Shown: one piece after another, positions 1,631 to 64,000 of the stretch | Position numbering within the stretch: the stretch's first letter is position 1 | Layout of the letters: each line of letters starts with the position of its first letter | Assembly (NCBI RefSeq): GCF_964355755.1 | Contig: NC_092678.1 | Coordinates: 2,255,922 to 2,319,921, forward strand | Length of the DNA stretch: 64,000 bases | Reading direction: 5' to 3' | DNA from: Antedon mediterranea | Lineage: Eukaryota; Echinodermata; Crinoidea; Comatulida; Antedonidae | The notes under the pieces: generated by a model | What the model saw: the letters and a program-made list of their open reading frames with translations, nothing else | Told to the model about the DNA's origin: nothing | Database searches by the model: none | Program-made: the position numbers and the translations under genes

Positions 1631-3455
1631 AACTGTGTTTGCAGACATAATGGTACACGTACATATACCGGCTGATATCATCAAAACAGCTAAGTACTTT
1701 GAAATAGTATATCTGAAAAAAAAAAACAGGAATATTCCTCTACAGTACCGTGTATATAATTTAACAAAGAAACTGAAAATTGATTAGTGAATTAATTACT
1801 TACCTTTTCTTCAATATTATTATTCCTAATATCATATTTGCTATTAATGAACCCTGTAAAAGACAATATAATTGTTAATGCAAGTGGAGTTGTAACTTGG
1901 TGGTTAACATGCTTGCCTTCCAATCCCAGGATTCAATTCTGACTTAGTGCCAGGGTTCAATCCTTTTTAATATTCTTGTTGGAATAACTTTTTTTCATAG
2001 ATAGATTTAGCATACAGTACTTACATTGCAGAATATCATATGTAGTAACTGCATAGATGTTAAAATTGGAATAACATTTTTTCATAGATAGGTTTAGTAT
2101 ACAGTACTTACATTGTAGAATATCATATGTAGTAACTGCATAGATGTTAAAATTTGAATAACTTTTTTTCATAGATAGGTTTAGTATACAGTACTTACAT
2201 TGTAGAATATCATATGTAGTAACTGCATAGATGTTAAAATTTGAATAACTTTTTTTCATACAGTAGATAGGTTTAGTATACTTACACTGCGGAATATCAT
2301 ATGTAACGGCATAGATATGTTAAAATTTATTGCATAGTTGTTAACTACACTCACAATAAAAAAGAACATTACCATGTACAGATAATTTCTGTTAGAACAT
2401 AAAAGAAAATGTGTAAATTAGTACAAGTTAACAGTATACATAAAAAAATATGAATACACATTCTTAAAATTAAAAATAAATATAAAAAAACAATCATTAA
2501 TTCAGATTTATCATTGTCCTAAATAACAAAATTCAATTAAATATTTTAAATCGATATACAGTATTCTTTATTTGTTATCATTTAATTCTTTTATTTTATT
2601 ACTTATATTATTCAGAAAATGTATTACTTAAAAGGTTGTACAAGCTTTTCTTCTATAAACTAAAAATATCTATTCTTGTGTTGTTTGAAATTTTCTGCGC
2701 AATTTGAACATTGAAATTGCAAATCCTTGCGCAATTTGAAATTGTTGACGTTTGCCATAGTTAACACATACTGTACAGTATATACTTACACTACAGGAAT
2801 AACAGGTTTCTTTGTACCAAACCTAGTGGTAAATATAAAACCTTCTACAGAAATGATAAAAAACTGAGCAAATGTTATTAAATTGCCACATCCCGGATAT
2901 TCACTGTAAAAACAAAAGCATATTTATAATTTATTAAAATCAGACATTTGAAAATCTTTGAAATAAAAGGGTTATGGTACCTGCAATGTACGATAGGCAA
3001 TGTTCAATGTAGGAGGATTGGCCTAGTATCAGTATCAATAGATCCATGAATGTTGTACCTGAAGTAGTAGCCCTCTAATCTATACTATCTATAGGCAGGC
3101 TTATGCCTAGTTGGCCGCCTCGCCTGGCTAGAGCTAGCTAGACAGACACCTGAACCTACTACTCGAGTCGTAGTCCTCTAGCTAGGCCTGGCCGGCCCTG
3201 GGCTAGCTACTAGTAGTACTAGCAGGTACTTAGAGGCTAGGGCTAGGCTAGCTAGGCCCTAGCCTAGAGCTCTAGGCCTAGGCTACTACTAGCTAGTTAG
3301 GCTAGCTAGGCCTAGGTTAGGTAGGCCGAGGGCGGACTTATTTTTAACCGGTGCTAATGTATAATAAACAATACTTACGTTACCAGAAGTTCTAAAAAGA
3401 TTACGTTAGAACAGCATCCTATAAAAACAAACAACACTCCAAGAATAGATTTCAT
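1631..3455 (-). CDS. SLC35B4: SLC35B4-like nucleotide-sugar transporter, first five coding exons (partial)
   Basis: Exons on the minus strand: 3379-3455, 2790-2903, 2286-2388, 1804-1853 and 1631-1712. They give 142 codons in continuous phase. The start is MKSILGVLFVFIGCCSNVIF, matching the SLC35B4 N-terminus. Later blocks include YPGCGNLITFAQFF, VSVVNNYAINFNISMPLHMI, GSLIANMILGIIILKKR and a last segment ending CTIMSANTV. The family comprises about ten-TM Golgi/ER antiporters carrying UDP-xylose and UDP-GlcNAc; the exons here cover roughly the first four helices. The remaining ~190 residues should lie left of the window. All exons have GT donors and AG acceptors. Intron 3 contains tandem copies of the exon 3 end, and intron 1 a CTAG-rich tract. 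Assignment to the B4 member rests on the GSLIANMILG block and the N-terminus. Confidence 0.92.
1885..1960 (+). repeat. tRNA-derived repeat head (partial SINE)
   Basis: The segment has an A-box-like stretch (taacttggtggttaa) and a B-box-like stretch (aggattcaattctgac), followed by a second gttcaatcc. A near copy is at 17582-17670 (tagcttggtggttaatgtgc), which supports a dispersed tRNA-derived family. No complete cloverleaf can be drawn. Confidence 0.45.
1981..2330 (-). repeat. Tandem copies of the SLC35B4 exon 3 end plus its splice donor
   Basis: Three units of about 87 bases (1981-2067, 2068-2154, 2155-2242) lie next to the parental segment 2243-2330, which holds the last ~44 bases of real exon 3, its donor and the start of intron 3. 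Each copy keeps the CATATGATATTC core and a strong GTAAGTAC donor. In the copies CCG has become CAG, giving an acceptor-like ATGCAG just before the core. Potential 24-base microexons are therefore bounded at 2025-2048, 2112-2135 and 2199-2222, each reading LLHMIFCN or LLHMIFYN in frame. The pyrimidine tract is poor, so splicing of these is unproven. Confidence 0.85.
3050..3335. repeat. CTAG / AGGCCT-rich low-complexity tract in SLC35B4 intron 1
   Basis: Over about 280 bases the tetramer CTAG occurs some 25 times, in runs such as gctagctaggcctaggc, far above the surrounding sequence. Similar text recurs at 3790-3890, at 60366-60420 and inside both 848-bp transposons (48425-48460, 50645-50755). 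It has no strict period, so it is not a simple tandem repeat. It is highly self-complementary and could fold. Confidence 0.6.
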
Positions 3456-4371
3456 TATTTACAACCGGTTTCTCCGAATTTTATTTTGTATTAATTGTAT
3501 GTTTTTTTTATGGGCCGGGTGTCACTTATCAAGATCAACCATGCGTGACGTGTCACGTCATTTCTCGCCGCCCGACGCGTGTGGCGTTTATGTAAATTAG
3601 CATTTCTATTGGCACGGTGACCGTGCTTATAATTTGAAGAAGAAAAAAAACAAAACAATACACGGTGACCGCATTTTACCTCAAAAGTACAGTATTCACT
3701 ATTAATTTACTGCAAAAGAAAATATAGTATAGGCTACCTTCTCTAGAGTAGATCTATAATATTTCTTAACATTTATGTTATACATCCATAAGGCTAGCTA
3801 GTCATAGGTAGTCTCTAGAGGACTAACTAGGACGTCTTAGACTTAGGCCTAGCGTAGTAGCTAGTACTAGTAGGCTAGATAGAGGGTAGCTTCCGTGTGA
3901 GAAGGAGGCCTCCATGCGCGCGCGAGAGAGGATTGCGACTAAGCTAGGCCTAGGTAGAAGAGCCAGGCTTGCTAGACCCCACAGACCTACTTTTCCATAA
4001 ATCTTTGTATTTTAATATTATACTTGCATTTATTTGGCCTACTACTATAATTATTAGTATTTTAGTAATATTTTAATAAAAATTAAAGTATTACTAAATA
4101 AAATACTAGGCTAGGCTATGTTTATACTGTGTTTATTCTTTAAATGTTGTCATGTGAACTCAACTTGTAATGTATTTTTTAAAATTATTATATTTATTTG
4201 TTATTTTGATATGGTAAATTCAACAATGTTTACTTTGTTGCAATAAAGAATTGAATTTAAATGTTTATCTTTTGAATATGCACAAAATGTTTTTAACTTT
4301 TACCATTTTTGTTGGTAGGGTACGCCCTAACTAACTAACTAGACGATTACAGGTGTACACTCCTAATCGAT
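3456..4371. promoter_or_regulatory. Head-to-head promoter interval between SLC35B4-like gene and ZNF277
   Basis: The two start codons are 916 bases apart and point away from each other. The SLC35B4 side (3530-3680) is locally GC- and CpG-rich in an otherwise AT-rich window. It holds the palindrome at 3546-3560, a CCAAT box read on the minus strand (3608-3612), and the 11-mer CACGGTGACCG twice (about 3613 and 3661). The ZNF277 side (3980-4360) is AT-rich with no clear core element. Transcription starts cannot be placed from sequence. Confidence 0.6.
3546..3560. promoter_or_regulatory. Palindromic TGACGTG site (UPRE/CRE-like)
   Basis: TGACGTGTCACGTCA is a perfect inverted repeat of the 7-mer TGACGTG around one base, 91 bases upstream of the SLC35B4-like start codon. 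TGACGTG is the core recognised by XBP1/ATF6-type bZIP factors of the unfolded protein response. That would suit an ER/Golgi sugar-nucleotide transporter, but occupancy is inference. Confidence 0.5.
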
Positions 4372-7300
4372 ATGGCAAGTGGTGGTGGAACAAGTCATAA
4401 AGATGACGTCCAGCTGGAAGCCCTAAATCTTCCAGAAAGCACCGATTCTCCGGATCTAGCGACGGAATCTGTTACAACTAATACAGTAACCTGTGTATTT
4501 TGTTCAATGTTGTTTGATGCTAAAGAAGATAAAGATCCATTTCTGAAACATATGATTGATGAGCATAAATTCCTGATAGCAGATGTCAATTTGATTAGTG
4601 ATTTTGTAGGGTAGGTATTGAATAGCAAACATATTCAATGTGCAACTAATTCATGGTAAATAACAAGTTCCTTTCTCTCAACAGAAACAAGACCGAAAGG
4701 TTTTAACGTCCACTGACTTACTCGTAGTGGACACCTTTAGTCAGGATCCAACAGAGATGTTAAAACCTATATGCCCTTGATAGATTTACAGAAAACTGTC
4801 CCCTTAATAAGGTGTGTCCGAAAAGAGGGTTTTACTGTATTTATTTATTTTTTTTTTATTTTCAGCTATATTGGATATTGGAAAATGCGATTTTCTGAAC
4901 AACCAATCACAGACTTCTGTTCGGTTATCAAAACCAATTGCAAACAGGACAATCCAGGTAATTGGCAGCTTCAGTTACTGCCATGATTTTCTGGAACTTT
5001 TGAAAGTTAAAACTGGAATTGTTGATATTTTATGGAATATTTGTCAAGTTTCTAAATTAAAAAAATATTTGGCTTGAAACTAATTCATATTAAAGGATAT
5101 ATTTTTTATCAGGAAAACAAGAAGATTTCTACCTATTGTCCGATGTGCTGCAAGAGGATAAAGGCTTGAGGGAGTTCTTGCAACGCAGACGACTCGACTC
5201 CATCCTCCTCCAGCTTCAGAAAGAGCGTGACGATGTCAACTTTAAACGGCGGTGTCTGTTTTGTTGGGATGTGTTTGAAGGGAACAGAATGGCATTGATA
5301 GACCACTTATCCAAGGATCACAGTTTTGCAATAGGAAGATCCGATAATATTGGTAAGCATTTACTTTATTAATTTACAGCAGTGGAGAAGAGGCAAGGTA
5401 AACAATAGCATATTATCATCCTAGCTGCAGGCTACTGTTTGTACAATCTATCCATTATCATAAGCCTAATCTTAACATAATAACCTTAACATTCAGTATT
5501 ACAGAATGTAGAGATACAAGGTGAACTTGAACACAAAGAGTACTGTAAGCAAAGTGCAGTGGTTCACAAGTACTACCTCCTAGTGGACTCCAAAAGAGTT
5601 TTCTGTTTTTTTCCTTAAACACCATATACACTAAATAAAATTATGATTTTGACAATAATGATTTGATATTTTTTGTTTTGCAGTTTTTGTGAATGAATTT
5701 TTAGACAAATTACAAGAAAAGCTTGATAAGTAAGTTATGTAGCGTAATATTTTAATCATTTATATTAGAAAAAAACATATTTCACAAATGTTTCAACATA
5801 GAATTTATAGCTCTGCCTACACTATCAAATTTTATGTGATTAAAAAATGTGATGTGCCCATATATGGACATGATGATGTCATATCACTACCATATTTAAG
5901 CATATCACTACCATATTTGGGCAATCACTATTTTTATCAAACTAGTTTGATAGTGTAGAACGAGCTTTAGAATTATGATTAATCAAAGAGGCCTTTTTTG
6001 TTTTTTAGATTACAATGTTTATATTGCGAGAAAACTTTTCGAGACAGGCCCACTTTAAAAGATCACATGAGAAAAAAGCAACACAAAAAAGTCAACCCAA
6101 AGAATAAAGAATACGACAAATATTACATTATAAACTATTTAGAAATGGGTAAAAACTGGGAAGATGTGCGGGCAGAAGATGATAGGGATATAGCAGCAGC
6201 ACGGAGTGAATCCCCAGACTCTGAGTAAGTGATTAATAAATGAAAGACATTTTACAATTCTGCAAGAAGAGCTGGTAATAGTGCTGTAGGTTGTTGCATT
6301 GGATTATGTCAGCATGGGTATGAGATACAGACTTCATGTTTTTTTTGTCAACAGTGTACAAGTATGTGTGTTTGCCTAAACTCCCTCCAGTGCTGCTAAG
6401 AAAAATTACCAATAAGATTGATTTAGTAATATTATTTCCTCTGATTATGTTTTTTTCTCTTTTTTTTATGTATGTTGTTAATTGTATTACTACTATTGTT
6501 AGGCCTACATTTATTAATATTACTAATTGACTAACTTTTTTCTTTTCTCCAGAAACTGGGAGGATTGGGATGATGATGCAAGTGCTAATATTGTTTGTTT
6601 GTTTTGCTCTTACAACTCCTCTGAAATGTCAACCATGTTGAGTCACATGACACAAGTTCACAGTTTTGATCTTGGCGTTATTAAAAAAACATTAGGTAAC
6701 ATTGGCTCTCATTTGGTTCAACAATTATAGAACTACAGAACTACATAAGGCAATTAACAATTTCTATTTTTTTTTTGTCAGATTTAAACTTTTATCACCA
6801 AATTAAGTTAATCAACTTTATTCGTCGAGAAATGCACCAGCACAGCTGTTTTGTTTGTCGAGAAAAATACACATCGGACGACGAAATTTACAAGCATATG
6901 ACCGAAGAAAAACACATCTCACAAATACCTGACCGCAATGTGTGGGATCAGCCACAGTAAGTTATCATGCCTTTTAATATATATTTTAAGAAAAGACAAA
7001 AAAAGTTTGATGTGCCCAAATATGGAAGTGATATGCTTAAATATGGTAAAGATATGACATCAAAGTTTTATAATGTAGACAAAGCTTTAAATATTTTAAT
7101 ATTTTCATACTTGGTCAATGATTTTACAAGGGTGTATATTGTAAATGGGACAACCTATGGGGTTTTAAGAAAAACAATAGTAAAATTAAAAATGATGTAA
7201 CCAATTCATAGTTAATTATTTTCCTACTTTTTAAAATGATTTTACAATTCTGTAAATGGGACTTTTAGGAAAAAGAGTGGTAAAATGAAAGTTTGTATAA

Positions 7301-7516: not shown

Positions 7517-7565
7517 CAAAGACTTTGCTATGGCTGTAATATATATAATGGAAAGAATACCAGAT

Positions 7566-8886: not shown

Positions 8887-9036
8887 AGCTCTGTCTACAC
8901 TCTAAAAAAATGTGATGTGCCCATATATGGACATGATGTATCATACCACTACCATATTTAGGTGCATCACTACCTTATTTGGGTACTGTACATAACACTT
9001 TTTTTGTCAAAATATTTTGATAGTGTAGACATAGCT
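8887..9036. mobile_element. Fold-back MITE, family A, copy with internal TACTGTA scar
   Basis: Ends are agctctgtctacac and ttttgatagtgtagacatag; the catttaggtgcatcactacc modules are inside. At 8984-8990 it reads gggTACTGTAcataacac where related copies suggest a form without the CTGTA, consistent with a transposon footprint. Confidence 0.8.
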
Positions 9037-42600: not shown

Positions 42601-45111
42601 TTCAGTTACCGGATGGTGATGTTCTGACAACTTTCAGTTATTTGATGGTGATGTTCTGACAACTTTCAGTTACCGGATGGTGATGTTCTGACAACTTTCA
42701 GTTACCGGATGGTGATGTTCTGACAACTTTCAGTTACCGGATGGTGATGTTCTGACAACTTTCAGTTACCAGATGGTGATGTTCTGACAACTTTCAGTTA
42801 CTGGATGGTGATGTTCTGACAACTTTCAGTTACCGGATGGTGATATTCTGACAACTTTCAATTACTGGGTGGTGATATTCTGACAACTTTCAGTTGCTAG
42901 GTGGTGATATTCTGACAACTTTCAGTTGCTACAGTAGGTGGTGATATTCTGACAACTTTCAGTTGCTAGGTGGTGATATTCTGACAACTTTCAGTTGCTA
43001 CAGTAGGTGGTGATATTCTGACAACTTTCAGTTATTGGATGACAACTTTCAGTTACCGGATGGTGATGTTCTGACAACTTTCAGTTATTGGATGGTGATG
43101 TTCTGACAACTTTCAGTTACCGGATGGTGATGTTCTGACAACTTTCAGTTACCGGATGGTGATGTTCTGACAACTTTCAGTTACCGGATGGTGATGTTCT
43201 GACAACTTTCAGTTACCAGATGGTGATGTTCTGACAACTTTCAGTTACTGGATGGTGATGTTCTGACAACTTTCAGTTACCGGATGGTGATATTCTGACA
43301 ACTTTCAATTACTGGGTGGTGATGTTCTCACAACATTCAGTCGATAGGTGGTGATGTTTTCTTGTCGATGACCAAATGATTTAAACATTTTTTTTGGGAA
43401 CAGAAATGCATTCAGCATAGTAGACTTTAATTTTGCATCTATTATAATAAACATTTACTAAACATCATGCAGACAGATCTATAGTCACTTGTTGGGTTTT
43501 GCCTTTGTTCTCTATCACTTGATGTAACTTATTTATCAAGTAGAAGACATCCTTATTGTCCATCCAGCAGATTAAACATACAGTATCTCTGCTTAAAATC
43601 TATCATTTCCTATCATTTGACAAATCACTTAATTAAAATTGATAAGTTATCAAAAGAATTCTCATATTTGTTTTAAAATGATGTGAATAAAAAAGACATG
43701 ATGTTGATTGATTGAAAGGTCGTGACCTTTTGATTGAATGTGACGGACACGTTTGGGTTAGTCACTGTAATAAACTCTGCCAGGTACATAATTTTATTTT
43801 AAAAATAGATTTAAATTAAAACCTTATACAGAAACAAAAATTTCAATTTTGTACATTTAATCTTTTTTCAATATTTAGACAGGCCAATGAGGTCCAATCA
43901 GGGTAACTTGCAGTCGTGCTTTCGTTTTGGGAAAATGACGTATTGATGTGTGATCAGTTGTCATCTCGGCCTAAAAGCTGTGTTGAGGAATTCCCAACTT
44001 TCCTTGCAATGCTCACAATGAATTAACGTGACTTATCTTGTTCCTAGGTTGTGGATTGTCGCAAATTGTATTCGTGATGAGACTTGTCATGGTTCAACGC
44101 ACAATGGTACTGTAGCCATCAGTTGAAGTTACTTACTATAAAGTATATCATACTGTACATGTAACATACAATTTATTTTTATCGTAAAATATTAATTAAT
44201 TAATAAATTTATGGAAAGATAAATTTTTAATATAGTAAGGACTGGAATCAATATTTTACAGTAGTACTAACCATATGCCTTTTTTAAAATCATATATTTT
44301 ATAGCATTTTTAGGTAAATTTGTCTGTACTACAGTACATTATACACCCTGTACAGTTTGGAATTGTGTGTACTTTTATTGACAGTGTTTAGCACTAAAAG
44401 AAGTACTTTCCCCAGGCTAAATCAACTTTGTTTTCGTAACACATTATGATTTTATTAGTTTGTTATTGTGCTGCAAACATGACCTTTCTGGGGTAGACAC
44501 ACACAACAAAACATTGCTATTGAATTGTTCCACAAAATTACATGGATCTTTTGTAATCTCACTATTCTAAAATACAGTAGGTGAACCTAGCTATTATGCA
44601 TCTATCAGATTGAAAAGTAGTTGAAAGATACATGAAAGTAGATAAAATGGCATTAGCTGTGCAAACACACTTGAGTTATGCGTGCACACCACAAATCATA
44701 ATCATTTGTAGTTAATCAATGGTTAACTCTGTTATACCTTCGCATGCAATAAAACTCTGATGTAACTCCAATATGACCAAAAGGTTTCAGTGTTATATTG
44801 TATCTGGTGTCTAGATCACACACGTTTAACGCAAAACAATGCGTAAATATAGCTTTTTTTGCACATAATACAAGAAGCACGGGTATACTAGAAGTACTCT
44901 CAATGGATCCAAAAGGAGCAATAATTCTGAGAGACACACCTAATGGTTGTCACCTGGTGTGTCGATCATGCACTCTTACTAATTTAGCTCTTAGCTTTCT
45001 GCTTCTTACCTGGTAATGGACTACATCCTTGGAGGTTCCATTTTCTGACTTGCTTCGGTAGATAGTAGAGGTAGTCCTTGGCCTCTCCTGATCCCTAGAG
45101 TGTTGGCTCAT
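12261..45111 (-). CDS. FOXP: FOXP-subfamily forkhead transcription factor (complete, 12 coding exons)
   Basis: Exons, 5' to 3' on the minus strand: 45010-45111 (coding part), 33732-33911, 29933-30125, 27191-27404, 24543-24656, 22679-22853, 22111-22360, 18842-19020, 15339-15466, 14892-15021, 14202-14482, 12261-12687. The CDS is 2373 bases, 790 aa, all phases closing. Domains: Gln-rich region (about 45-140, longest run six Q), LWKEV block of exon 4, C2H2 finger (C251/C256/H269/H274), leucine zipper (about 286-314), RRR-x-SEKY linker, forkhead (about 423-505), sumoylation-type IKHE (551-554), acidic tail. FOXP proteins dimerise through the zipper and bind DNA as repressors or activators in the nucleus. 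The long vertebrate FOXP2 polyQ and the PLNLV CtBP-binding motif after the zipper are both absent. The start ATG has an in-frame TGA nine bases upstream. There is one gene here; vertebrates have four paralogues, so 1/2/3/4 cannot be assigned. Confidence 0.95.
12688..14201. other. FOXP intron (between last two coding exons)
   Basis: Very AT-rich, especially 12950-13860. A slightly GC-richer patch at 13900-14070 contains a 66-codon minus-strand ORF without splice support. I see nothing else. Confidence 0.6.
15132..15282. mobile_element. Fold-back MITE, family A (FOXP intron)
   Basis: Left end ccttgtctacactatcaaac is intact and the inner tgatgtacctatatatgg and atcactaccatgtttgg modules are present; the right end is decayed (actagttagacaggtcttta). 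Confidence 0.7.
15339..15466 (-). CDS. FOXP: FOXP exon: second half of the forkhead (recognition helix)
   Basis: This exon begins at [20 protein letters not shown], the recognition helix and following strand of FOXP forkheads, and continues [18 protein letters not shown]. The split between ...RNAATWK and NAVRH is the intron position seen in vertebrate FOXP genes. It pairs with exon 18842-19020 across a 3.4-kb intron. Confidence 0.97.
15671..15730 (+). repeat. Three perfect 20-bp tandem copies
   Basis: The unit atgttccataccatagctca is repeated exactly three times in the FOXP intron between the two forkhead exons. Confidence 0.95.
16799..16936. mobile_element. Fold-back MITE, family A, complete copy (FOXP intron)
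   Basis: Ends ctctgtctacactatcaaac and gtttgatagtgtagacagag are well preserved; caaatatggtagtgatatga lies inside. Confidence 0.8.
16981..17037 (+). repeat. tRNA-like sequence lacking an anticodon arm
   Basis: GCCCCAA at the 5' end pairs perfectly with TTGGGGC at the 3' end. A D-arm-like tggtctattagtaggat and a good T arm (CCGGG-TTCAATT-CTCGG) are present. Only about ten bases lie between the D and T arms, so the anticodon stem-loop is missing and the total is 57 instead of about 72 bases. It is best read as a tRNA pseudogene or tRNA-derived element. Confidence 0.55.
17582..17670 (+). repeat. tRNA-derived repeat head, second copy
   Basis: The text ggagctgtagcttggtggtt and caaaggttcaatcctgac resembles Pol III A and B boxes and matches the copy at 1885-1960. 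Confidence 0.45.
17700..17828. mobile_element. Fold-back MITE, family A, left end decayed
   Basis: Inner aactagtttgaaaaagtgtg and the right end cttgatagtgtagacagaga are recognisable. The left terminal repeat is mutated. Confidence 0.65.
18370..18735 (-). repeat. Degenerate ~20-bp minisatellite (FOXP intron)
   Basis: About 15 irregular units on the theme cacagaacttgtaggagtct, with variation in both length and sequence. It ends about 100 bases from the forkhead exon donor at 18841. Confidence 0.75.
18842..19020 (-). CDS. FOXP: FOXP exon: first half of the forkhead
   Basis: The exon reads [20 protein letters not shown] and onward through [20 protein letters not shown] to AATWK, nearly identical to vertebrate FOXP forkheads. 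[16 protein letters not shown] is typical of the FOXP subclass. The acceptor (tttcatttctcaaatatag) joins in phase with the exon ending [10 protein letters not shown]. Confidence 0.97.
19021..22110. other. FOXP intron before the first forkhead exon
   Basis: AT-rich. It holds the tRNA-like sequence at 20003-20074 and a 33-bp doublet at about 21577-21640 (ccgtaattacaggcttggga). No exon is evident. Confidence 0.55.
20003..20074 (+). repeat. 72-nt tRNA-like sequence (pseudogene or SINE head)
   Basis: TACCCA and TGGGTA pair at the ends. An aatggtagg D loop, a tctgc...acaga anticodon stem and a canonical TTCGAAT T loop are visible over 72 bases. The T stem is poorly paired and the anticodon loop is unclear, so a functional tRNA is unlikely. 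Confidence 0.45.
22679..22853 (-). CDS. FOXP: FOXP exon: end of zinc finger and leucine zipper
   Basis: It starts at [20 protein letters not shown], giving the two finger histidines, then the zipper heptads [20 protein letters not shown]. The Leu/Val/Met spacing supports dimerisation. After the zipper the text is [12 protein letters not shown]; the vertebrate PLNLV motif is not present. Confidence 0.95.
23640..23990. repeat. Three degenerate ~118-bp tandem copies (FOXP intron)
   Basis: Each copy has tgcaatatttgccaaat or a variant of it, then ttttcccagaatttaaac. Copies have diverged substantially and one lacks the first half. Confidence 0.6.
24260..24480 (+). repeat. Dispersed 'cctttaatagg' repeat fragment
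   Basis: Phrases such as gtccctttaataggtgtg and cctctaagtaggggttgg recur with variation at about 4790-4830 and 34030-34170. They look like scattered remnants of one interspersed family; ends are not definable. Confidence 0.4.
24543..24656 (-). CDS. FOXP: FOXP exon: C2H2 zinc-finger knuckle
   Basis: The exon encodes [18 protein letters not shown] and then DNFSSFLK, the cysteine half of the FOXP finger (C-x4-C). The histidines are supplied by the next exon at 22679-22853, so the intron splits the finger. Confidence 0.95.
25621..26346 (+). repeat. 20-bp minisatellite, about 36 copies
   Basis: The unit is attcaataaatgtaccctct. Variant positions are c/t in tgcacc and ct/tg in the last bases. It is very homogeneous, so it was probably expanded recently. 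Every unit carries AATAAA on the plus strand, antisense to FOXP. Confidence 0.97.
26347..27190. other. FOXP intron remainder
   Basis: AT-rich sequence between the 25.6-kb minisatellite and the LWKEV exon. I see no gene or repeat of note. Confidence 0.5.
29748..29890. mobile_element. Fold-back MITE, family A, right end truncated
   Basis: Left end tctgtctacactatcaaact and inner aaatatggtagtgatat (twice) are clear. The right inverted repeat is cut off at gtcacataaa, 43 bases from a FOXP exon donor (29932). Confidence 0.75.
30126..33344. other. FOXP intron 2
   Basis: It contains a minus-strand tRNA-derived head (about 31225-31320, with tatgttcgaatcttgc as B box). Elsewhere it is AT-rich non-coding sequence without recognisable genes. 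Short ORFs at 31685 and 32707 lack any support. Confidence 0.5.
33345..33510 (+). repeat. Dispersed repeat, uninterrupted copy
   Basis: It runs tttagtcaaagactgg...gagggcccagttatgatcag...aaagtgcacattagctagat. A second copy at about 49905-50935 is split by the 848-bp transposon; this one shows the empty site (around 33448-33460). Confidence 0.75.
35967..36084 (+). repeat. ~60-bp tandem doublet
   Basis: Two copies of aaaacatattactgtaatat followed by tgtactaaagacatgtattg, differing at few bases. Each carries one TACTGTA. Confidence 0.85.
36855..37275 (+). repeat. ~65-85-bp tandem repeat (FOXP intron)
   Basis: Five to six units of the form gggtcaagggttaagatgtg followed by ctcagctaatggtacggata and gaaagggcaagtaggagaga. 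The last two units are near identical. Both strands stay open over several units, so the ORFs here are repeat by-products. Confidence 0.85.
38090..38500 (+). repeat. Degenerate array with a 66-bp higher-order unit
   Basis: Simple phrases (ttccattctatgttac, gggaattc) are followed at 38270-38490 by a better-kept unit: gtgttaattagagctctcca ... ccatggtacaagag ... ccatgttacaggaatt. Confidence 0.75.
39063..39078 (+). repeat. Run of 16 G
   Basis: An uninterrupted G16 tract in very AT-rich surroundings. It could form a G-quadruplex; length may also be unstable or mis-called in assembly. Confidence 0.9.
42080..43356 (+). repeat. ~32-bp minisatellite with higher-order structure
   Basis: About 38 units of ggtgatgttctgacaacttt + cagtta/gccggat. 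Sub-types differ at gatgtt/gatatt and at the last 7 bases. A block of roughly 550 bases (from about 42290) is repeated in similar order from about 42860, showing segmental duplication within the array. Five units contain CTACAGTAG in place of CTAG. Confidence 0.95.
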
Positions 45112-46944: not shown

Positions 46945-47182
46945 CACGGCTCTATTTAATACTAGTCCAGCTCTATTTAATACTAGTCCAGCTCTATTTA
47001 ATACTAGTCCAGCTCTATTTAATACTAGTCCAGCTCTATTTAATATGTGCCTAGCTCTATTTAATACTAGCCCAGCTCTATTCTATGTACTAGCCCTACT
47101 CTAGTAAATCCTACAGTAGCCCAGCTCTATTTAGTACTAGCCCAGCTCTATTTAGTACTAGCCTGGCTCTATTTAGTTTAAA
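46945..47182 (+). repeat. 21-bp minisatellite, about 11 copies
   Basis: The unit is agctctatttaatactagtcc, with variants tactagccc and one ctacagtagccc at 47111-47120. Confidence 0.9.
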
Positions 47183-47730
47183 TAAATTATTTTTAGTCAA
47201 CTTTATCATCTTTCAAGCCTGGTTAATTTAAATTAAAAATTGTCTGACCACATGTTATGCTATCTAAACTCTAGTTGGTAAAAGATTTATGGTCATTCCT
47301 GATCTTCTAATCTGCTGTAGAGGGCTCTGTTTTCTGCATCTGATATTGGTATTTTTTCCTCAATTAATACTGTAGGGGAATCCCCAGATTGTACATGATT
47401 TCCTGTAGAATTGTTCTTTTTAAAAGTGTTTCCCCAAACTATTATAAAGTATAAACTTAAAAGAAAGTTTAAAAGAAAAAAAAATACAGCAATTGTTTAA
47501 TAAAACTACTAAAATAATACAGTATGCCCCATTTCTATAACAATGCTCTTTATCACTGATATCACTACAATTTCGATCTCGCTTCCTGGAAATCTTGTTT
47601 TCACGCAAGTAGAAGGCCAGAAAAAAGTTCTTGATATTTGGAGACTAATATTTTAGAATGTACAAGATGAATAAATTATGTTTGAGAAAAGCTTTCTTTT
47701 GTTGTTTGCTATATGACACACTTTTATTTA

Positions 47731-48578
47731 CCGTATATTTCGGTGTATAAGTCGCACCTGTGTATAAGACGCACCCACTAACTGAGAGTAAAATATCGGT
47801 ATTTTTTATATCGTCGATGTATAAGACGCACTTTATATTTCATCAAAACAATATTTTTTTAAATTGTAATCAATATTATTGTAATAATATATTTTGTTAT
47901 ATCTACAACGCTCTCCTTTATTTAGCTTTTTTCTTACCTAGGCTCGGCCGCGCCCAGCCTCAACAAGTTATTTCTAACTTGTTATTCGTGAGTTTCGTAC
48001 CCGCAACATCGAGTGCATGACCGTGTGTGTAACACGCACGCGTGTGTGCTAGCCTCGCTCGATCATTTCGAGAGGGCGCACGTTTTCACGGACAATCGTA
48101 TTCGATTAGTATCTATGTATCCGAGAAGTGTGTACGCTAGGTCCATGCTATAATCACCTGGAGAATATACTAGTCGAATACCGTACACCATGTGGCTGCC
48201 AAGAAGGGCTTGCGCTGGGGGTACGGCGGTCGGCGATCGTGCGTATAACTATAAATAAATACTAACCTATTCCAATCGTAAACGTTTACAAATGAAATTT
48301 TATCGGAGCGCCTAAAACAGCTCCATAATGAACAAATCTTTTCATCATATTTAGTATAACATCATGCTAAAATGCCTTGAAAACTAGGCAGAAGCAGGTT
48401 GCCGTTACGTTAGTACACTGTAGCTGGGCTAGCCTAGTAGCCTACTCAGGCCTAGCCAACGAGGTGACGATATGTACAATCTGTGTGGTGAGGCATATGT
48501 TCGGTGTATAAGACGCACCCTTAATTTAGAGGTCAAATTTGCGTGTCAAAAGTGCGACTTATACACCAAAATATACGG
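47731..48578. mobile_element. 848-bp TA-flanked non-autonomous DNA transposon, copy 1
   Basis: The ends are inverted repeats starting CCGTATATTTCGGTGTATAA (right end reads CCGTATATTTTGGTGTATAA on the other strand) and are flanked by TA on both sides. The sub-terminal motif tgtataagacgcacc recurs inside both ends. The interior is GC-richer than its surroundings (cgtgtgtgtaacacgcacgc) and encodes nothing convincing. TA target sites suggest Tc1/mariner-type mobilisation, though I cannot name the family. Confidence 0.9.
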
Positions 48579-49052
48579 TAGCTTTTCTGTTGTTGTTTTT
48601 TGTACCTTATTCAACCACTGTTACCCATAACAATCTTCTTCGAATTTAGATCAAAATGTATTACAGTATAAATGAAAGTACAAATCAAATTCTGTGTATT
48701 TTTCACCCGAATCAAACATTAATCTTTAATAGCTTTCAAATACTGAGTCCATTCAAACATTAAAATCTTTCTTTTAGTATAGCTTTTGTCAACATAGGAA
48801 ACATAATTATTCCATGCTTTCTTTATTCTTACTGTGTACGTTACGATTCCACTCATTCACACCTGCGGCCGTTAAGTCTACTACAATTGGAATTGATTAA
48901 CGAAAGTGTCAAGATTTAATTTACTAATATTTTGTAGACTGTTGGGAAAACTGTTTTAATAATTTTTAATTTTTCAACTTTATTTGGGCCATACAGTAAT
49001 ATAAACTACAGTTATTTTTCTAATAACAGAAATGATTATTAAACAAAACAAA

Positions 49053-49320: not shown

Positions 49321-50010
49321 ATTCTTTAATCATTATTAAAATATTTATTATCAAAAGTGTTAATAGAGCTACAATTTAGTATAGTCAATCAGACAGGGTC
49401 CATCTGTATTTTGTAAATTTCTTAATACAGTACTACAGTTCAGTTGTGTTTTTTAAATCTTTACAATTACTATAAATACGGTATGAATTATGACTTACAA
49501 CAATCTTAGCGCCATTGTTACCTACACAATACAAATTATGGAGCTCAGAACGCTAGGTCGTCTGCTGCACGAGAGAGGTTAAAGCAGGTCATACTGAAAT
49601 CAAACCAACCCACTCAAGCCATTATGATTGTCAGTTGATTAGCAGACTAAATAAAACGCAGTAATATAAATATCTTTGTCGACATTCAATATCCAAATTT
49701 TATAGTAATTTTTATGATGATATTATTGACAAGATTTGTGTTCCAATGATATTTAAATTATCTAAATGCCTGCATAATTTAAATAGAAATAATTGCAAAT
49801 AATTGCTATAAAAAATTACCAGTTACTGTGCATGAGCAATAAATTATTATCATATTGTTGGATGTTCAGACCAGGAAAGTAGTCAATAACAATTATTATT
49901 TCTTTATACTGGATAGCCTCTTCAGTCAAAGACTGTTCTACCAGAGGGCCCAGTTATGATCAGTGGCTGTGTGTATTACTGTAGTACATGTACACCGGTG
50001 TAACCTCCTA

Positions 50011-50858
50011 CCGTATATTTCGGTGTATAAGTCGCACCTGTGTATAAGACGCACCCCCAACTGAAAGTAAAATATCGGTATTTTTTATATCGTCGATGTA
50101 TAAGACGCACCTTATATTTCATCAAAACAATGTTTTTTCAAATTGTAATCAATATTATTGTGATAATATATTTTGTTATATCTACAACGGCGTCCTTTAT
50201 TTAGGTTTTTTCTTACCTAGGCTCTGCCGCGCCCAGCCTCAACAAGTTCTTTCTTTCTTTCTTTCTTTCGCCGCAACATCGAGTGCATGACCGTGTGTGT
50301 AACACGCACGTGTGTGGGCTAGCCTCGCTCGATCATTTCGAGAGGGCGCACGTTTTCACGGACAATCGTATTCGATTAGTATCTATGTATCCGAGAAGTG
50401 TGTACGCTAGGTCCATGCTATAATCACCTGGAGAATATACTAGTCGAATACCGTACACCATGTGGCCACCAAAAGAAGGGCTTGCGCTTGGGGTACGGCG
50501 ATCGTGCGTATAACTACTGTATAAATAAATACTATTCCAATCGTACGACGTAAACGTTTACAAATGAAATTTTATCGGAGCGCCATAATGAACAAATCTT
50601 TTCATCATATTTAGTATAACATCATGCTAAAATGACTTGAAAACTAGTCCTAGGCTAGGCAGAAGCAGGTTGCCGTTACGTTAGTTAGTTACTGTAGCTA
50701 GGCCTAGCCTACTCAGGCCTAGGAAACGAGGTGACGATAGCCTAGGCCTAGGCACAATCTGTGTGGTGAGGCATTTATGTTCGGTGTATAAGACGCACCC
50801 TTAATTTGGAGGTCAAATTTGCGTGTCAAAAGTGCGACTTATACACCGAAATATACGG
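50011..50858. mobile_element. 848-bp TA-flanked DNA transposon, copy 2, nested in an older repeat
   Basis: It has the same ends, length and interior as copy 1, in the same orientation, again with TA on both sides. Differences include a (tttc)n expansion at about 50247-50270, a CTGTA insertion at 50517 and altered ctaggcc-rich text near 50690-50755. It splits a dispersed repeat whose halves are about 49905-50010 and 50859-50935; the intact version is at 33345-33510. Confidence 0.9.
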
Positions 50859-51206
50859 TACTCATTTCAAAAGATATATTAGGTTTTTAAAGTGCACATG
50901 AGCTAGATGTGTACACTGGACTTACAATACAGTACTTTTCAAATTGGAAGCATAATAACATACAGTCAATGTTAAATATCATCCTATAAGCCTGGGTGTA
51001 CAGCTGTATAGTAGACTTGACCTTGGTAATTAATAACGAACGAATCTATAGGGTTAGCAGTCCTACCACAGGAAGAGGTATACTACGGTACCTTCAGTAA
51101 TAGATATGAAAATTAGCCAATGAATGGCCTTGTTAGACAAGCAACAGGCTAACCCGCTCTGAATGAACTTGCCCGGTGGTGTACAGTAGTAACTAAAATT
51201 TAAATC

Positions 51207-52200: not shown

Positions 52201-55200
52201 ACCATGGACCCACTACTGTGTGAATCACAACCGTAAATTAGAATATCATCAGTTAAAAAACGTTCAAGTTTAAAGCCAATGGCTTATGTTTAAATTAGAC
52301 AATATCTTGCTCTATAATCAGTCCCTTGATGCAAATCACAATTTCTATTTAAAGAAAACTATAAAAAGTTGTTTACAGGTTTTAAAAGTAAACTGTTTTA
52401 TAGTTGACCAGGTATTCTACACAACAAAACAGTAATCTCAGGGGCTTGTTTACTGGAGAGTAATGTAGTGTCTGGTGTATTGATGAGAGTTGATTGATGG
52501 ATGAGATGCAGAGATAGTAGATACTAGGTCCCTGGTGAGGTGACATTGATCAGTAAACAAAGTAGTACTTCCACTTCTAATCTCTAGACTCAACAACAAA
52601 CAAGACATGTTTTATATAATGGGAAATTTACTTTGCTTGATAGCTTCATTTAAAATGCGACTTGTAGCCAAGTTGGTCGCCTTTAAATGCAGGACACCTG
52701 GTCCTGTTAAACAGACATTCTGCGCATGTAATTCTATGAATGTGTGCAGAATGACTTTCTGACTTGACAGACCAACATGAATTGTGTTTAGACACATGAA
52801 TTGTGTTTTTTCGTAATGTGTAGGTCTTGATATATCCATAATTATTGTTTTACTGTACCAGGGGTTTCCCATAATTTTAGGACGCCAAATAATAACTCCG
52901 ACATAATCCAAGTAATGCGAAAGATAGGACACCAGCTCAGCCCTTCATTCCACAATTTTTAGGCCCTTGGTGCGCCCACGCCCCACCCCACCTATTTCAA
53001 AATCCTGGATCCGCCACTGTATGTACGTGTACATTGTAAAAAGGACTAGCATGTGTAGACTTTTAAAAACATGTCAACAAGTTTCAGGTAGTAGGGCTTC
53101 TACCCTAAGAAATATTGTGATATTGTCTTGCACATTTTCTAAAAATAAAATAATATAAATAAACCTATAAACTGGTATCTAGTAACCCAAACATTCCTCC
53201 TCATTCTAATAATATAAACAGCAATATTTTGCACATGAAATTTGTATTCAGGATTTAACCAGTAAACACTGTATAAACAAAGCCCAAGGGTAGTAGTTAT
53301 TAAAACAGGGAATAAGGTAAACATGTATAATAAACACCAATAAATAATAGGCTAGTAGAAAAATAAACAATGTGAAAGCTATTAAACATTGCTGCATTCA
53401 AACCATTGTAAAACATAAGAAATTTCAATAGATATATTTTTTGTTAATACAGTACTACTGCAACTTCAGTTTAAAATACATGGACAATTTTTACTTTTCA
53501 ATTTTTTAAAAAATACCATAAAAATTGTGCATGCATTTTAAACTGCAATGTATTAACAGATTTTCTTATTTTGATTTTTATATGAATTAGACCAATAAAA
53601 GATGAATTGAATTAATACTATATGTAATCAATATCTACATTAGTTTGACAGGCCCCCTCTACAGTAGGTTGTAGAAAACAATAAACGTGATTATCAATTG
53701 AATTTCCGTTGTTGGCTACTTTTAAGTCAAGCTCAGACAACTTTAACAATACAGCATTTTATAGTGAAAACATTTTCCTCTGGTTTTGATTAGTATATTA
53801 CAGTAGTTTATTGATGTCTTAAAACGTAAATTAAATTTATACTGGTTTACAATTATATTATTTTGATGCATAGTTATCTAAACAAGAGTTAAACAACAGC
53901 AGTCCATCACATCGTTGATCTAATTAAGTCTCATTCTCAATAATGTTCTCACTTTGAGTAGCAAACAATTTATGTTACCATGGTGATGATGATGGGTGAA
54001 GCAGATGTTTACAGGGGCCAACAAACAACACAGTGTCGCTTTATTGATTTCTAGCCAAGCAAATAAACAAAGACTGTAAATTGCTGATAGCTAGAGGATT
54101 CAATGATAACAATTTAGTAGCAAATATAAACAACGCAAAAAGCAGAGCCATTTTAATTCTGTCACTGCCTCCTGATTGTGTTACCAAATGCGGCGGCTGA
54201 CACACTTTCCAAAAAATATAACAAACTTTTAGTACAGTGTATTGTATTTGCTATACAAAACAAAAAACTATAGTCGGTAGATAACATACAGTGCTATAGG
54301 CTCAGAAATATAAAGTATTCAAGCTGATCTACATTACTGTTTAAATACTACTGTAAATAAAAACGAAATTGGTGCATTCAAGATTTTGACGTACTGTAGG
54401 GCGCTGTGGCCTTAAAATTTAAAAAATCATTAAAAATTAAGTGAATACAAGTTTTAAAAGCTTCTATCCAACCTTGTACAGTAATGGCCACTAGGGCACA
54501 ATGCAAAAACGCAATAAGTTGACCAATTACAAGTGGATTATACTTGTTGCCATTGGCTTGTATTGCGCTTATGTTCTTGCGTTGCAAACTAGTAAGAACC
54601 AAGCTTAACGCTTATTTTAAGGTCTTACATGGCAGGAACTCAAGAAACCTCTGGTACTTTTGCTACTACTGTACATCCCTGCAACTACAGTAGTGATGAT
54701 GAAAAACTAATTTATAAATCATAATGCTAGGTTTTTTCAACACTGCAGATAGATATTATACAACTTACTTTAATAATGCCACATGCAGTACTGTAACCTG
54801 TACAAAGATGTTTATAGTTGCGTCATATACCCACAACTTACAATATTTTTTTGGCAATAATAATACAATACAGAAGCCAACAGCCAATAATCTTTAATTA
54901 CTGAAACATTATAAATCTTAACCGTTTTCTTTGCTATGCAATTTGAACATACAATTTCGTTAAACATCCCGTTCTGATTGAACTGGATGTGCAAAACAAC
55001 AACAGGATCTCGTTTTGCCGTTACAGTCCTTCGAGGCGTATCGTTCACAAACCCCAATCCAATTTCCACCCAAGGCCCACTAGGCGAACTTGCTATTTAC
55101 TTCATGGAAATAAACACATCCAGGCAAAAAAATCAACTTAAAAAAAACCCTTTCTCTCAAAGGAGTACTTTGAATTTTAATGGCTCAAAAATGAACCATT

Positions 55201-58200
55201 TAAAATTAGCAAACTGGGCAAAACTCACATAAACAGCATCATTAACGGAAAAATGCACAACATTAAGTAATGTGATCCTATTTGATAAAATGTTTGAAGA
55301 GAATGACATTGCTGATTATGTGAAAATTAAAAGTCATGTGCAAGATGTAACTTAATCTGGGGCTTAACACTTTGAAGGGTAGTGTGTGACCCTTTGGTGA
55401 ACCTACTGTGCAGGGAATATTAAAACCATTTAACAAATTAAATGAATGTTCTATAATTTTTAAATAGATTCATGGCGGTCTACAGTGAATTTACTGTGTA
55501 TGTCATAGCAATTTCATTATTATATTTTAAATCTAATATGAATATGATATGAATGCTACTGTAGGCCCTAGATCAGTTTTGCCTTGCTTAGTGTATTATA
55601 AATATTATCTAATATTACACTTATTTCTAATAAGCGCAAAATAGATGCACAGTTGTCTATTGTAAGTTCATATTACTTAATAAATGAATGATCTAAGATG
55701 CGATATTTATTGCTAGGCCCTTCACAAATAGGATGACAGCTGTGTAGTCATGCCTTTGTTGTGGAAGCTGGGCATATCAATGAGAAACTCAGCAGTCCAT
55801 CTCACTGGGTAAACACCGTCGACTCACACAACAAACCTTAGGTAAACAAATACTCTTATGTTGCTTTCAATTTTCTACTGCGGATCAATTTCATGCATTA
55901 ATTTCATTTTATCTGCGCTAAATTCAATTGTACACACCTTAGCAGTATGGTCTCATCCACACTTAGTACTTTGAAATATAAATGACAAGAAAACGTCATC
56001 GACATACATATTGTTTAGATGAGATGTTCCCTGTCTATTTGGGTCAAACAAAAAAAAACCTATTTTAGAAAACAAGATTTTTAAAATGGGAGAATACATG
56101 GGTCTATGGTACCAATTACAGTACATTTATAATACCATTTCTGTTAAAATGAATTATTTTAGTAAACAGAAATACTTACTGTGTACGGTAATGTTCTACC
56201 ATACATATACTTACTATAGTTTTATACAAATACTAAGGACCGATTTTAGTACAACACAATACTATTTAACTGGACTGGTTTTATAGAGTACTACTGTAAC
56301 TGCAGTGTACAGTACTGTAGGTGTTGAGAAAGTTTCCGGTTTCGGGAGAGTTGACTGTAGTTGATTATCGATAAATTATGACAATTTGTGTATGCAGAGA
56401 GCAAAGCAGAGAAATGCAATCAATATATGTGTATCCTTTAATTCAATTACTCATCATAACATACTGTACAAGCTAGGTGGTCTATACACTGCAATATTCT
56501 TAAGCAAGAAACTACTGTACACATATCATTCAAGTTATATACAGTACAGTATTACCTGGCAAAATACTGGCCAATTGTTAACATTTAATATTAATATTTT
56601 TATAATGTAATTTATTTTTAAAAACCCTTACTGTACTACAGTTGACTACTGTACTGTAATGGGACTGGCATAAAAAGTTACGCTAATTTTGAATTACGGA
56701 TTTGTAAAAAAAATGCTAGTTCTGTTATTATTTTTATGAATTTCTATTTTAAAATTGAAATAACTAATATTTATAATAATATTTATAGATAGCACTGTTA
56801 TACAAATATCCAAAACAAACTAATGTATAAATAACAATATCAATTGTGAGACAATAATATTTTTAAAACAATTCTAATTTGGTACAAATGACTTTTCTCT
56901 GGGTCTGAGAAAATGACACATGACATTTATAAATACTTCTATAGTCTGTCTATCATAATTTTAGGTTTGATAATAATTATCAACAAATTCAAATACTGTT
57001 GAAGATATAAATAGAAATGAAAATAAGCAATTAAACTTTTGACTAAAACACATCATGTGAATGCAATGCAACCAGGGGCAATACTGTACAATTTTAAATT
57101 AATAATTTCAAATGATATTAAAAATAATATTATTTGCTAATGCATAAAATATGTGCACTATAAATACACAGGCAATAAAACTGCCATATTGGTTTTACTA
57201 CTTAAAATATTAATTATGTAAAAATTGAATATGAAGGCATTGTTAATATTAAAATATTAAATTCTCTGATAAGGGAATGATCCATTGGCAGAAAATGAAA
57301 TAAAATCTCAAAGATGAGATTGTTTATTTTGTTATCATCATCATTCCTTGCTACCTGCTAATCCTGGCAAATGAACCATAAACAAATAAAAAGGAATGCG
57401 CTGAACAAAATATTAATCAATAATAATCAAATAAATTAAACAATAATAATTAGTAAGAGGAAAAAATCTTAGCTACAATTAGTCAACTGTTGTAATAATG
57501 ATATTGATACACACGTTTCTTATACTGGCAGACGGTACATTTAGTATCATTTCTGGCAAACTATGTATTTACTATTAATGTAAAAACTGGTTGGTTGGTT
57601 GGTCGCCTCTTACTACTCACGGTGGCCTCTTTGTAGTTTATAATTAAACATTTATTCCAGAACTGATTGTTCTGTATTTGCATTAAATAAAATTACTGTA
57701 AAATAATTGTACCTGTTATATACATGATTTAAGCAAGATCAACTGATAAAAGAAAGAATCCTTCACAAAGTCTAGGCCTAGGCCATCGTGTTATTAATTG
57801 AGTAATCGCGGCCCACATGTAAAACAGTGGCGGACATAAGCACGGTGCACGCCGGTGTGTTTGATAACTTCAGGACGAATCATTTACTGTAATTAGTGGT
57901 TCCTTTATTATAAATCAACGTGCGATATTTTTTTTACAGGAAAGCAGATCATTTATATCTACTCCCCAACCAAGTACTTGGACTGATTAACATCGAAGAT
58001 CCAAAGTGACATATCTTTACAATCGTGCGACCATGCATGCATGTGATATACGTACGTACGTGCATCCACAATAGCAAGGTCCGCATTTATTTCCTATGCA
58101 AATTATTTATTCGGGGCTCTGCGAAAGCCATTGCGGGCCACAAATAACAACAACTACACAAAAATAAAAATCATCAATCGTGTGCACCGGACAGCGTGAA

Positions 58201-58239
58201 AAACAGTTAAATTCGGAATATCGTTATAATATTACTTAC

Positions 58240-58400: not shown

Positions 58401-58586
58401 CACAATCTTTTTAAAACGTCTTATGCATTTATTGTTGGTACAGTTTGATAAAATATAAACAATGTAAATTTATATTATCAAATTCTAATTCAAAAAACAT
58501 AGAGAGATTAAAATTAATTAGAAGAAGAAATTGAAGTAGTTCCAACCGAACACATTGTTGTTAAAGGAAGCGCATCGGTCTGATAT

Positions 58587-58594
58587 TGACGTCA
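58587..58594. promoter_or_regulatory. Consensus CRE (TGACGTCA)
   Basis: A perfect palindromic CREB/ATF site about 350 bases upstream of the candidate FOXP leader exon donor, in a locally less AT-rich patch (58555-58645). A TGTAAACAAAC forkhead-type site follows at about 58614. Both are sequence matches only. Confidence 0.35.
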
Positions 58595-58645
58595 CACAGT
58601 TTATACACCTGCTGTGTAAACAAACCACCCCAACCGCTTCTGAGC

Positions 58646-63500: not shown

Positions 63501-63852
63501 GACATGCAATCTGGCCATTGATGACATGCAATCTGGCCATTGATGACATGCAATCTGGCCATTGATGACATGCAATCTGGCCATTGGCCACAAGTTGTAA
63601 TGTTGCTATTTTGTTTTTGAATAAAACACTATATAATAATAGTATAAAGTATAAAAAAAAATGTATATAATAAAAAATCATATATGTCCCATATTGGGAA
63701 GTGCTACACTTGTTACCTTTTATACACTTATCATTTCTGTTTTACTATTTTAGGTGGCAATACGAAAAAAATTAACAGATATAATCGAAGAGGAGATGAA
63801 GCCGCTAAAAATACAGGCAGAAGCGTTACATGACAGTTTACTGCTAAAATAA
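60528..63852 (+). CDS. TAZ: Tafazzin, cardiolipin transacylase (complete, 8 exons)
   Basis: Coding exons: 60528-60639, 60819-60947, 61178-61223, 61348-61433, 62499-62579, 62940-62981, 63145-63338 and 63754-63852; 789 bases, 262 aa. That equals the human isoform lacking exon 5. The enzyme is a CoA-independent phospholipid-lysophospholipid transacylase that remodels cardiolipin at mitochondrial membranes. Visible motifs: N69-H70-x4-D75 (NHTSCLDD, the catalytic HX4D box), the RG-D-GVYQKALDF segment, and FAEGKVNM (F149-G152), where the family usually has FPEG. A hydrophobic N-terminal stretch (ATHFGVATLCKVW) fits the membrane anchor. The C-terminus KIQAEALHDSLLLK matches the family's end. The start is the first ATG in frame with the conserved MPLK-like leader. 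It is head to head with FOXP. Introns 4 and 7 carry minisatellites. Confidence 0.95.
61555..62468 (+). repeat. 19-bp minisatellite with ~94-bp higher-order unit (tafazzin intron 4)
   Basis: The unit is ctacccctacctctcatat. About five units with fixed variants (ctatccc, cctcatatattacccctatctctgatat) form a block that repeats roughly six times between 61650 and 62190, then decays into simpler units. It is pyrimidine-rich on the sense strand and ends about 30 bases before the exon 5 acceptor. Confidence 0.95.
62761..62851. mobile_element. Fold-back MITE, family A, left half (tafazzin intron 5)
   Basis: cctctgtttacactatcaaa, gtgtgatgtgcctaaatatgg and aaatatggtaatgatatg are present; the right half is missing. 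A tRNA T-arm-like fragment (minus: taggttcaagtccc) follows at about 62877-62905. Confidence 0.7.
63412..63587 (+). repeat. 22-bp minisatellite, eight near-perfect copies (tafazzin intron 7)
   Basis: The unit is gatgacatgcaatctggcca plus tt. It starts about 70 bases after the exon 7 donor. The minus strand reads open through the array in several frames, which is a repeat artefact. Confidence 0.95.
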
Positions 63853-63896
63853 CATTACGTAATGCTGAATATGCAATCAATATAGCTCATAAAATG

Positions 63897-63902
63897 AATA
63901 AA
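63897..63902 (+). terminator. Candidate poly(A) signal of tafazzin
   Basis: AATAAA lies 45 bases after the stop codon, the first such hexamer downstream. Confidence 0.5.
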
Positions 63903-64000
63903 TTACACCATTTTGATGTCTTGAATTGGTATGGCCCTGTAATGTTAATCCAAATAAGAAGACCAAATAGACTTAGAAAATATAAACGTTACAGTACAGA

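Follow-up and report, generated by a model that had tools for sequence, protein, structure and literature searches.

TACAGTA and TACTGTA heptamers in the genome of the crinoid Antedon mediterranea as probable excision footprints of CAG-ended transposable elements

Main finding

The heptamers TACAGTA and TACTGTA (together TACWGTA) were studied in a 64,000-base stretch of the Antedon mediterranea genome (contig NC_092678.1, positions 2,255,922 to 2,319,921, forward strand; hereafter the window) and in the assembly to which it belongs. Most TACWGTA copies are probably heritable excision footprints of CAG-ended transposable elements, themselves probably of the pogo type. In the proposed mechanism, elements flanked by duplicated TA and with ends CAG...CTG would be excised by cuts staggered by three bases, after which end joining would leave one terminal triplet between the TAs, so that TA becomes TA-CAG-TA or TA-CTG-TA. 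The donors would be of the pogo/Tigger type, comprising a 2.76-kb element with an open transposase frame and short non-autonomous derivatives with the same ends; we infer that these elements made the scars, by germ-line excision over a long time. Observed directly were the excess of the heptamer, paired TA and TA+5 states at defined sites, a triplet bias at those sites, copying of scars within repeat arrays, and elements with suitable ends.

Abundance and distribution of TACWGTA

The window holds 84 TACWGTA copies, where Markov models of order 1, 2 and 3 predict 14.7, 20.4 and 22.5 (Poisson P = 3e-23 for 84 given 22.5), and 78 sites keep unique flanks once array copies are collapsed. The assembly searched (354 Mb in 18 contigs, window included) contains 314,048 copies (156,369 + 157,679) against 118,829 of a reversed-letter control; the equal strand counts of TACAGTA and TACTGTA follow from strand symmetry and are no evidence on orientation. 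A first sample of ten 10-kb pieces, taken at 5.0 Mb of ten contigs, gave 65 copies versus 24-26 expected (63 without repeat copies). A second, hold-out sample of eight pieces totalling 80 kb, taken at 15.0 Mb of eight contigs, gave 82 versus 33 expected, only 65 of the 82 having unique flanks. The share of copies attributable to background was 17-27% in the window, 28-29% genome-wide and 38-40% in the first sample. The genome surplus is about 220,000 (221,000-228,000) when calculated from the 24-26 copies expected per 100 kb in the first sample, and 195,219 when the reversed-letter control is the yardstick. The excess reported in the initial annotation, about 80 copies against about 15 predicted by composition, is thus confirmed, and the pattern is genome-wide. 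One 10-kb piece (C4:15000001-15010000) carries 24 copies, only 7 of them with unique flanks, and a repeat array has therefore multiplied at least one TACWGTA site there.

Within the window the copies are unevenly placed, as initially annotated: 12 lie in 1.7-5.6 kb, 65 in 31-58 kb and 1 in 11-21 kb. The variance-to-mean ratio in 4-kb bins was 3.77, a value that 5,000 randomisations over TA positions never reached (highest 2.98), and the region from 5.6 to 31 kb holds 6 of the 78 unique-flank sites. Overlapping, nested-looking copies such as TACAGTACAGTA occur within the densest cluster (Table 1). At 140 unique-flank sites, background heptamers included, the base next to the scar was A at a frequency of 0.175 (0.334 at all TA) and C at 0.314 (0.178 at all TA); GTAC, CTAG and ATAC were favoured as targets, and TTAA and ATAA avoided.

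Among the 32 TANNNTA classes, TACWGTA was enriched 2.5-2.7-fold in the first sample and 2.5-fold in the second, and TAGSCTA 2.4-2.9-fold and 3.0-fold. TACSGTA was enriched about twofold (16 vs 8 in the first sample, 20 vs 10 in the second), and single samples gave 1.6-fold for TACCATA (the first) and 2.3-fold for TAGAATA (the second). An equally strong excess of unrelated TANNNTA motifs had been named beforehand as evidence that would speak against a scar origin, and for TAGSCTA it was found in part; we read TAGSCTA as a second insertion class, described below.

Paired TA and TA+5 states

If TACWGTA arises by insertion at TA, both states should be found at equivalent places, and pairs of this kind were present among paralogous repeats: in arrays of the window, in paralog gaps of 256 kb, and at two fixed repeat sites. 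The window cases are listed in Table 1. In the minisatellite at 42361..43005 the unit spacing is 69 bp, or 64+5. One array holds five scars duplicated together with its minisatellite units, and three copies of an 87-bp repeat likewise share a scar. Such scars must belong to the inherited genome, which is evidence against excision that is purely somatic.

For the paralog comparisons, gaps were dropped when they lay near other gaps or near alignment ends, or when the 16 bases flanking them contained over 3 mismatches. With 164 kb compared all against all, TACWGTA was present at 17 of 28 five-base insertion sites, counted in six-base bins with three array sites appearing twice (14 of 25 distinct sites). 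Among gaps of the other lengths from 1 to 12 in the same 164 kb, TACWGTA was absent except in 2 three-base gaps and 1 eight-base gap. Over 256 kb, once gap positions had been normalised, the form TA-X-TA accounted for 40 of the 95 five-base insertion sites; the triplets were CAG/CTG in 21 (array copies included, about 15 independent events by hand count), GCC/GGC in 12, CCG/CGG in 2, and five others once each.

The strongest evidence for scars is the triplet bias at fixed sites searched in the whole genome. The site TCTACACTA-NNN-TATCAAACT has 50 matches, all of them listed, with the triplets CTG (14), CAG (9), CAC (9), CCG (4), CGG (1), TAG (4) and six rarer ones. CAG and CTG together account for 23 of the 50, where equal use of triplets (2 of 64) predicts 1.6 (P 1e-21); P values at fixed sites are generous in assuming equal triplets, and duplication of the surrounding DNA may have produced several matches from a single event. 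Insertions of 1-12 bases separate two TAs at 191 matches to AATATGGTA-X-TAGTGATAT. Among the first 100 listed, X is three bases long in 23, and 12 of these 23 are CAG (8) or CTG (4). The uninterrupted AATATGGTA/TAGTGATAT site occurs 18,443 times in the genome against 191 interrupted occurrences, and the insertion is therefore the derived state there. Over the two oriented sites together the two forms are about equally frequent (17 CAG, 18 CTG), as expected if either element end could supply the triplet. CAC at the first site (9/50) and X = G at the second (16 of the 100 listed) resemble short flank duplications. The 16-mer AATATGGTAGTGATAT has 18,443 exact genome copies, often in 21-bp tandem steps, and short dispersed repeats of this type lie in the window at 5842-5920, 7707, 11262, 15165, 16848 and 29820.

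TACWGTA might instead owe its frequency to composition or to a function such as protein binding, and it is both clustered and among the most over-represented heptamers tested. This explanation appears very improbable to us, because neither selection nor composition accounts for exact gaps of TA versus TACWGTA at the same repeat place that are dominated by CAG and CTG.

CAG-ended elements and a candidate donor

The initial annotation had seen no element with CAG...CTG ends in the window and had pointed to the assembly as the place to look for one. Terminal repeats were sought around 12 transposase loci, and L011 alone yielded a convincing element, its CAG ends intact and its frame open. This 2,760-base element (426-3185) contains the genome's best DDE_1 match. 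Its terminal repeats are identical over the 24 of 24 bases compared (TACAGTAGAACCTCCATTTTACGT) with TA at both ends, or over 26 bases when counted from the tip with TA included. The open frame encodes 539 amino acids with the domains DDE_1, HTH_Tnp_Tc5 and HTH_23; the putative catalytic aspartates, located by motif, are D179, D294 and D329, with 34 residues between the last two (D-D-34-D). The element is of the pogo/Tigger type and is a candidate donor. TACWGTA occurs at its internal positions 420, 425 and 496, possibly as scars within the candidate donor.

A whole-element search with L011, in which 40 of 295 candidates were scored, returned one full-length copy, one partial relative on contig C9, and 38 further left-end and 35 right-end matches, nearly always paired a few hundred bases apart. 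Both ends lie close together at at least 30 places with roughly 85-95% identity, and this sharing of ends would be indirect evidence of mobility. The 14-base end TACAGTAGAACCTC occurs 412 times in the genome versus once for its control, and the looser end TACAGTNNAACCYC 1,263 times versus 52, a tandem array on C1 contributing to the count. When 20 such ends were compared with about 850 bases of sequence on their inner side, 6 had a partner end matching at least 15 of 24 bases. CAG-ended elements of the predicted kind were thus found in the assembly, and they are rare beside the scars.

In the window, contrary to the initial annotation, the end TACAGTAGAACCTC is present at 34018, at the left of a degraded element that has internal GGGGACA and CCCCTTAATAG motifs and no recognisable right end. 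Right or partner ends proposed for this piece and for a second one at 4839 matched at best 17 and 16 of 30 bases and were judged to be chance. A common element end downstream of TACAG was also sought among 486 TACAG sites in 164 kb, which clustered into mostly array copies and weak chance groups. An inverted-repeat census, intended for comparing element ends with scar triplets, was unusable, because most of what it returned belonged to other repeat families or palindromic arrays.

The pogo-type end itself starts with TACAGTA (element ends begin TACAGTAGAACC), and the sequences at 34018 and 4839 resemble such ends, so that TACWGTA could mostly represent surviving outer ends of decayed elements rather than scars. 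There is very little likelihood of this: the flanks of the 84 window sites are mostly unique on both sides with no common downstream sequence, the 1,263 loosely matching ends stand against 314,048 heptamers, and the repeat sequence resumes straight after TACWGTA. The result at TCTACACTA-NNN-TATCAAACT argues strongly against decayed ends.

The excision-scar reading of the initial annotation was of the Tc1/mariner type. The TA and TA+5 pairs and the triplet bias support that kind of scar; the candidate donors found are of the pogo/Tigger type rather than Sleeping Beauty-like. The footprints could still derive from another CAG-ended, TA-targeting group of the Tc1/mariner type that has since largely disappeared, the pogo-type elements being bystanders. 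The Sleeping Beauty footprint is identical in the cited account (PMC3432063), and 8 Tc1-type DDE_3 matches persist in the genome. No CAG-type terminal repeats were found, however, around the 6 of these 8 loci that were fetched, and a Sleeping Beauty-type end gave no exact genome match as a 25-base query, a search that divergent ends would escape. Among the 12 transposase loci, for which mariner PF01359 was not searched, the sole combination of intact CAG ends and open frame is pogo-type. We consider such a lost group unlikely as the source of most scars.

The 848-bp family as an internal comparison

Two copies of a non-autonomous 848-bp element lie in the window (Table 1), and 40 well-matching copies were scored among 760 genome candidates. 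Its ends, TA-CCG...CGG-TA, predict TACCGTA and TACGGTA scars. TACSGTA occurs 12 times in the window, 6 of these at the ends of or inside the two elements, in agreement with the dozen, half of them at the transposons, that had been annotated. The TACSGTA class is enriched, the element's terminal heptamers and one internal to it contributing to the counts, and CCG/CGG make up 5 of the 50 matches at TCTACACTA-NNN-TATCAAACT. Two element types, one CAG-ended and one CCG-ended, each appear to match a scar class. Insertion hotspots of the family are full of CTAGG/TAGGCCTA-type inserts.

The family also allowed a rough estimate of rate. Across 34,234 aligned bases, diverged 2.1% from consensus, there were 2 TACWGTA insertions, or about 1 scar per 360 substitutions. 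Constant scar birth with loss of the heptamer by substitution would then give about 0.4 scars per kb, and the observed surplus is 0.63-0.64 per kb; the estimate rests on two events in best-scoring copies and is an order-of-magnitude check. It suggests that slow, long-continued excision could suffice for the surplus.

Observations that weigh against an excision origin

Several observations count against reading most TACWGTA as footprints of CAG-ended elements. TAGSCTA is as enriched as TACWGTA, and part of the argument from excess is therefore not specific to CAG/CTG. Of the 22 five-base insertions seen across 41 copies of the 848-bp element, only 2 were TACWGTA, and many others were of TAGGC- or CTAGG-type. 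The 80-kb hold-out had TACWGTA at none of its 14 five-base insertion sites; the opposite direction gave 1 of 2, at a place already counted. Empty and scarred states were seen and no locus was seen both filled and scarred, no search for filled sites having been made. The footprint variants TACAGCTGTA, TACACTGTA, TACAGTGTA and TACATGTA were not clearly enriched in 164 kb, and the TA-anchored inverted-repeat census of the same 164 kb gave no clear CAG-ended element. The surplus of about 220,000 exceeds the 1,263 loose ends by more than 100 to 1. By analogy with the 0-4 bp footprints of Passer and the mostly unclean excisions of rice, both described below, a mainly three-base outcome would not be guaranteed.

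The disproportion between scars and ends would be accommodated by host-driven removal, in which a captured or unusually excision-prone pogo-type transposase clears CAG-ended elements from the germ line and TAGGCCTA marks a second such system. We regard this version as improbable; if it were true, such clearing would explain why scars outnumber recognisable ends more than 100-fold, and excision would be a regular source of new five-base insertions.

A second insertion class

TAGGCCTA has 128,596 genome copies; its reversed-letter control has 1,587 and, containing CpG, is a poor yardstick. In sampled sequence the excess over a Markov-3 model was 13- to 14-fold. The window holds 16 copies (3273-61136). 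TAGGCCTA too behaves like an insertion at TA, frequently forming runs such as TAGGCCTAGGCCTA; between paralogs it was found inserted at 15 sites in 256 kb, mostly in the 848-bp family, at 1 site in the hold-out, and in 2 of the 100 listed cases at AATATGGTA-X-TAGTGATAT. No donor element for it was found, the 164-kb inverted-repeat census being the only search that bears on the matter, and a literature search returned no matching report. For rice Harbinger elements, GG(G/C)CC ends and TAA/TTA targets are reported (PMC4423477), and Harbinger-type ends as a source of TAGGCCTA may be taken as a lead only. The class suggests that at least one more process of this kind is at work.

Features of the window

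The coordinates of the features are collected in Table 1. Pfam analysis of 8 window frames gave only a reverse transcriptase, an RVT_1 fragment at 258-1190 (-) that probably belongs to a LINE-like element. An open frame without family match at 62997-63407 (+), whose letters we take to resemble tafazzin, adjoins a perfect 22-bp tandem repeat at 63412-63586.

Table 1. Sites, clusters and elements located in the window (window positions)
Feature	Positions	Strand	Remarks
All 84 TACWGTA sites	1741..63996	.	Span of full site list
TACAGTA in copies 1-3 of 87-bp tandem repeat	2013..2193	+	At 2013, 2100, 2187; copy 4 has plain TA (TTTAGTATACTTACAC)
TACAGTA in copy 4 of 87-bp tandem repeat	2259..2265	+	Copies 1-3 read CATAGATAG, plain TA
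Possible degraded element	4700..4839	-	End TACAGTAAAACCCTC, from 4839 leftwards; other boundary guessed
TACTGTA on + (TACAGTA on -)	8984..8990	-	Absent from paralogous repeat copy; weaker case, up to 3 flank mismatches
Degraded short element	34018..34170	+	Left end as in 2.76-kb pogo-type element; right boundary estimated
CTACAGTAG units in minisatellite	42361..43005	+	At 42361, 42430, 42499, 42930, 42999; other units include CTAG there
CTACAGTAGCCC unit of 21-bp array	47112..47118	+	CTAGCCC in other units
848-bp element (852 with both TA)	47729..48580	+	Ends TA-CCG...CGG-TA
Second 848-bp element copy	50009..50860	+	Carries TACTGTA at 50515
TACTGTA on + inside second 848-bp element	50515..50521	-	Plain TA in family consensus
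TACWGTA cluster	54349..54795	.	Sites 54349, 54392, 54477, 54667, 54686, 54789
Densest cluster, 10 TACWGTA	56292..56658	.	56292, 56308, 56313, 56462, 56513, 56540, 56545, 56629, 56647, 56652

Comparison with known systems

The footprint mechanism is already known, and it is the scale that surprises. The typical Sleeping Beauty excision footprint is reported as TAC(A/T)GTA (PMC3432063), and a three-base overhang mechanism is described for Sleeping Beauty and mariner transposases (PMC7827188). The same seven bases in the same two forms at a TA target are found here; in the cited account Sleeping Beauty scars come from engineered cells, whereas those of A. mediterranea would be natural, heritable and genome-scale (PMC3432063).

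Pogo elements are described as mostly targeting TA, the Fot groups excepted (PMC7386202). The L011 element resembles the pogo/Tigger elements of the cited accounts in its DDE_1 and HTH_Tnp_Tc5 domains, TA target, short terminal repeats and predicted D-D-34-D arrangement (PMC7386202, PMC9976928). Passer, a pogo element of fish, is reported to leave footprints of 0-4 bp, whereas here the three-base outcome is the one counted (PMC9976928). The cited portions of the pogo/Tigger accounts describe no case in which scars outnumber recognisable ends more than 100-fold (PMC7386202, PMC9976928).

Stowaway losses in Triticeae were read from 1-4 bp terminal fragments between TAs (PMC1925063), and in a comparison of two rice genomes, with 1,821 polymorphisms inspected, most mariner-type excisions are described as accompanied by deletions or filler (PMC4423477). 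As here, these elements are TA-flanked and their losses are read from short terminal remnants; the cited studies concern single loci or 1,821 polymorphisms, in rice with deletions or filler, whereas A. mediterranea has one clean three-base class in very high copy (PMC1925063, PMC4423477).

In the ciliate Blepharisma, thousands of pogo-derived miniature inverted-repeat transposable elements (MITEs) are reported to be removed in the somatic nucleus (PMC9942856). Few autonomous pogo elements, many short derivatives and large-scale removal are common to both cases. Removal in Blepharisma is developmental and takes place in the somatic nucleus, whereas the scars described here have been duplicated in tandem arrays of the inherited genome (PMC9942856).

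Searches of open-licence papers brought up none that we recognised as describing a genome-wide TACWGTA footprint record. If the heptamers are scars, then excision rate, target preference, repair outcome and regional bias become measurable from sequence alone, and cut-and-paste excision would be a notable natural source of short insertions. Footprints in the compared literature, as far as the cited accounts extend, come from assays, single loci or hundreds of polymorphisms, against about 220,000 TACWGTA copies beyond composition in A. mediterranea.

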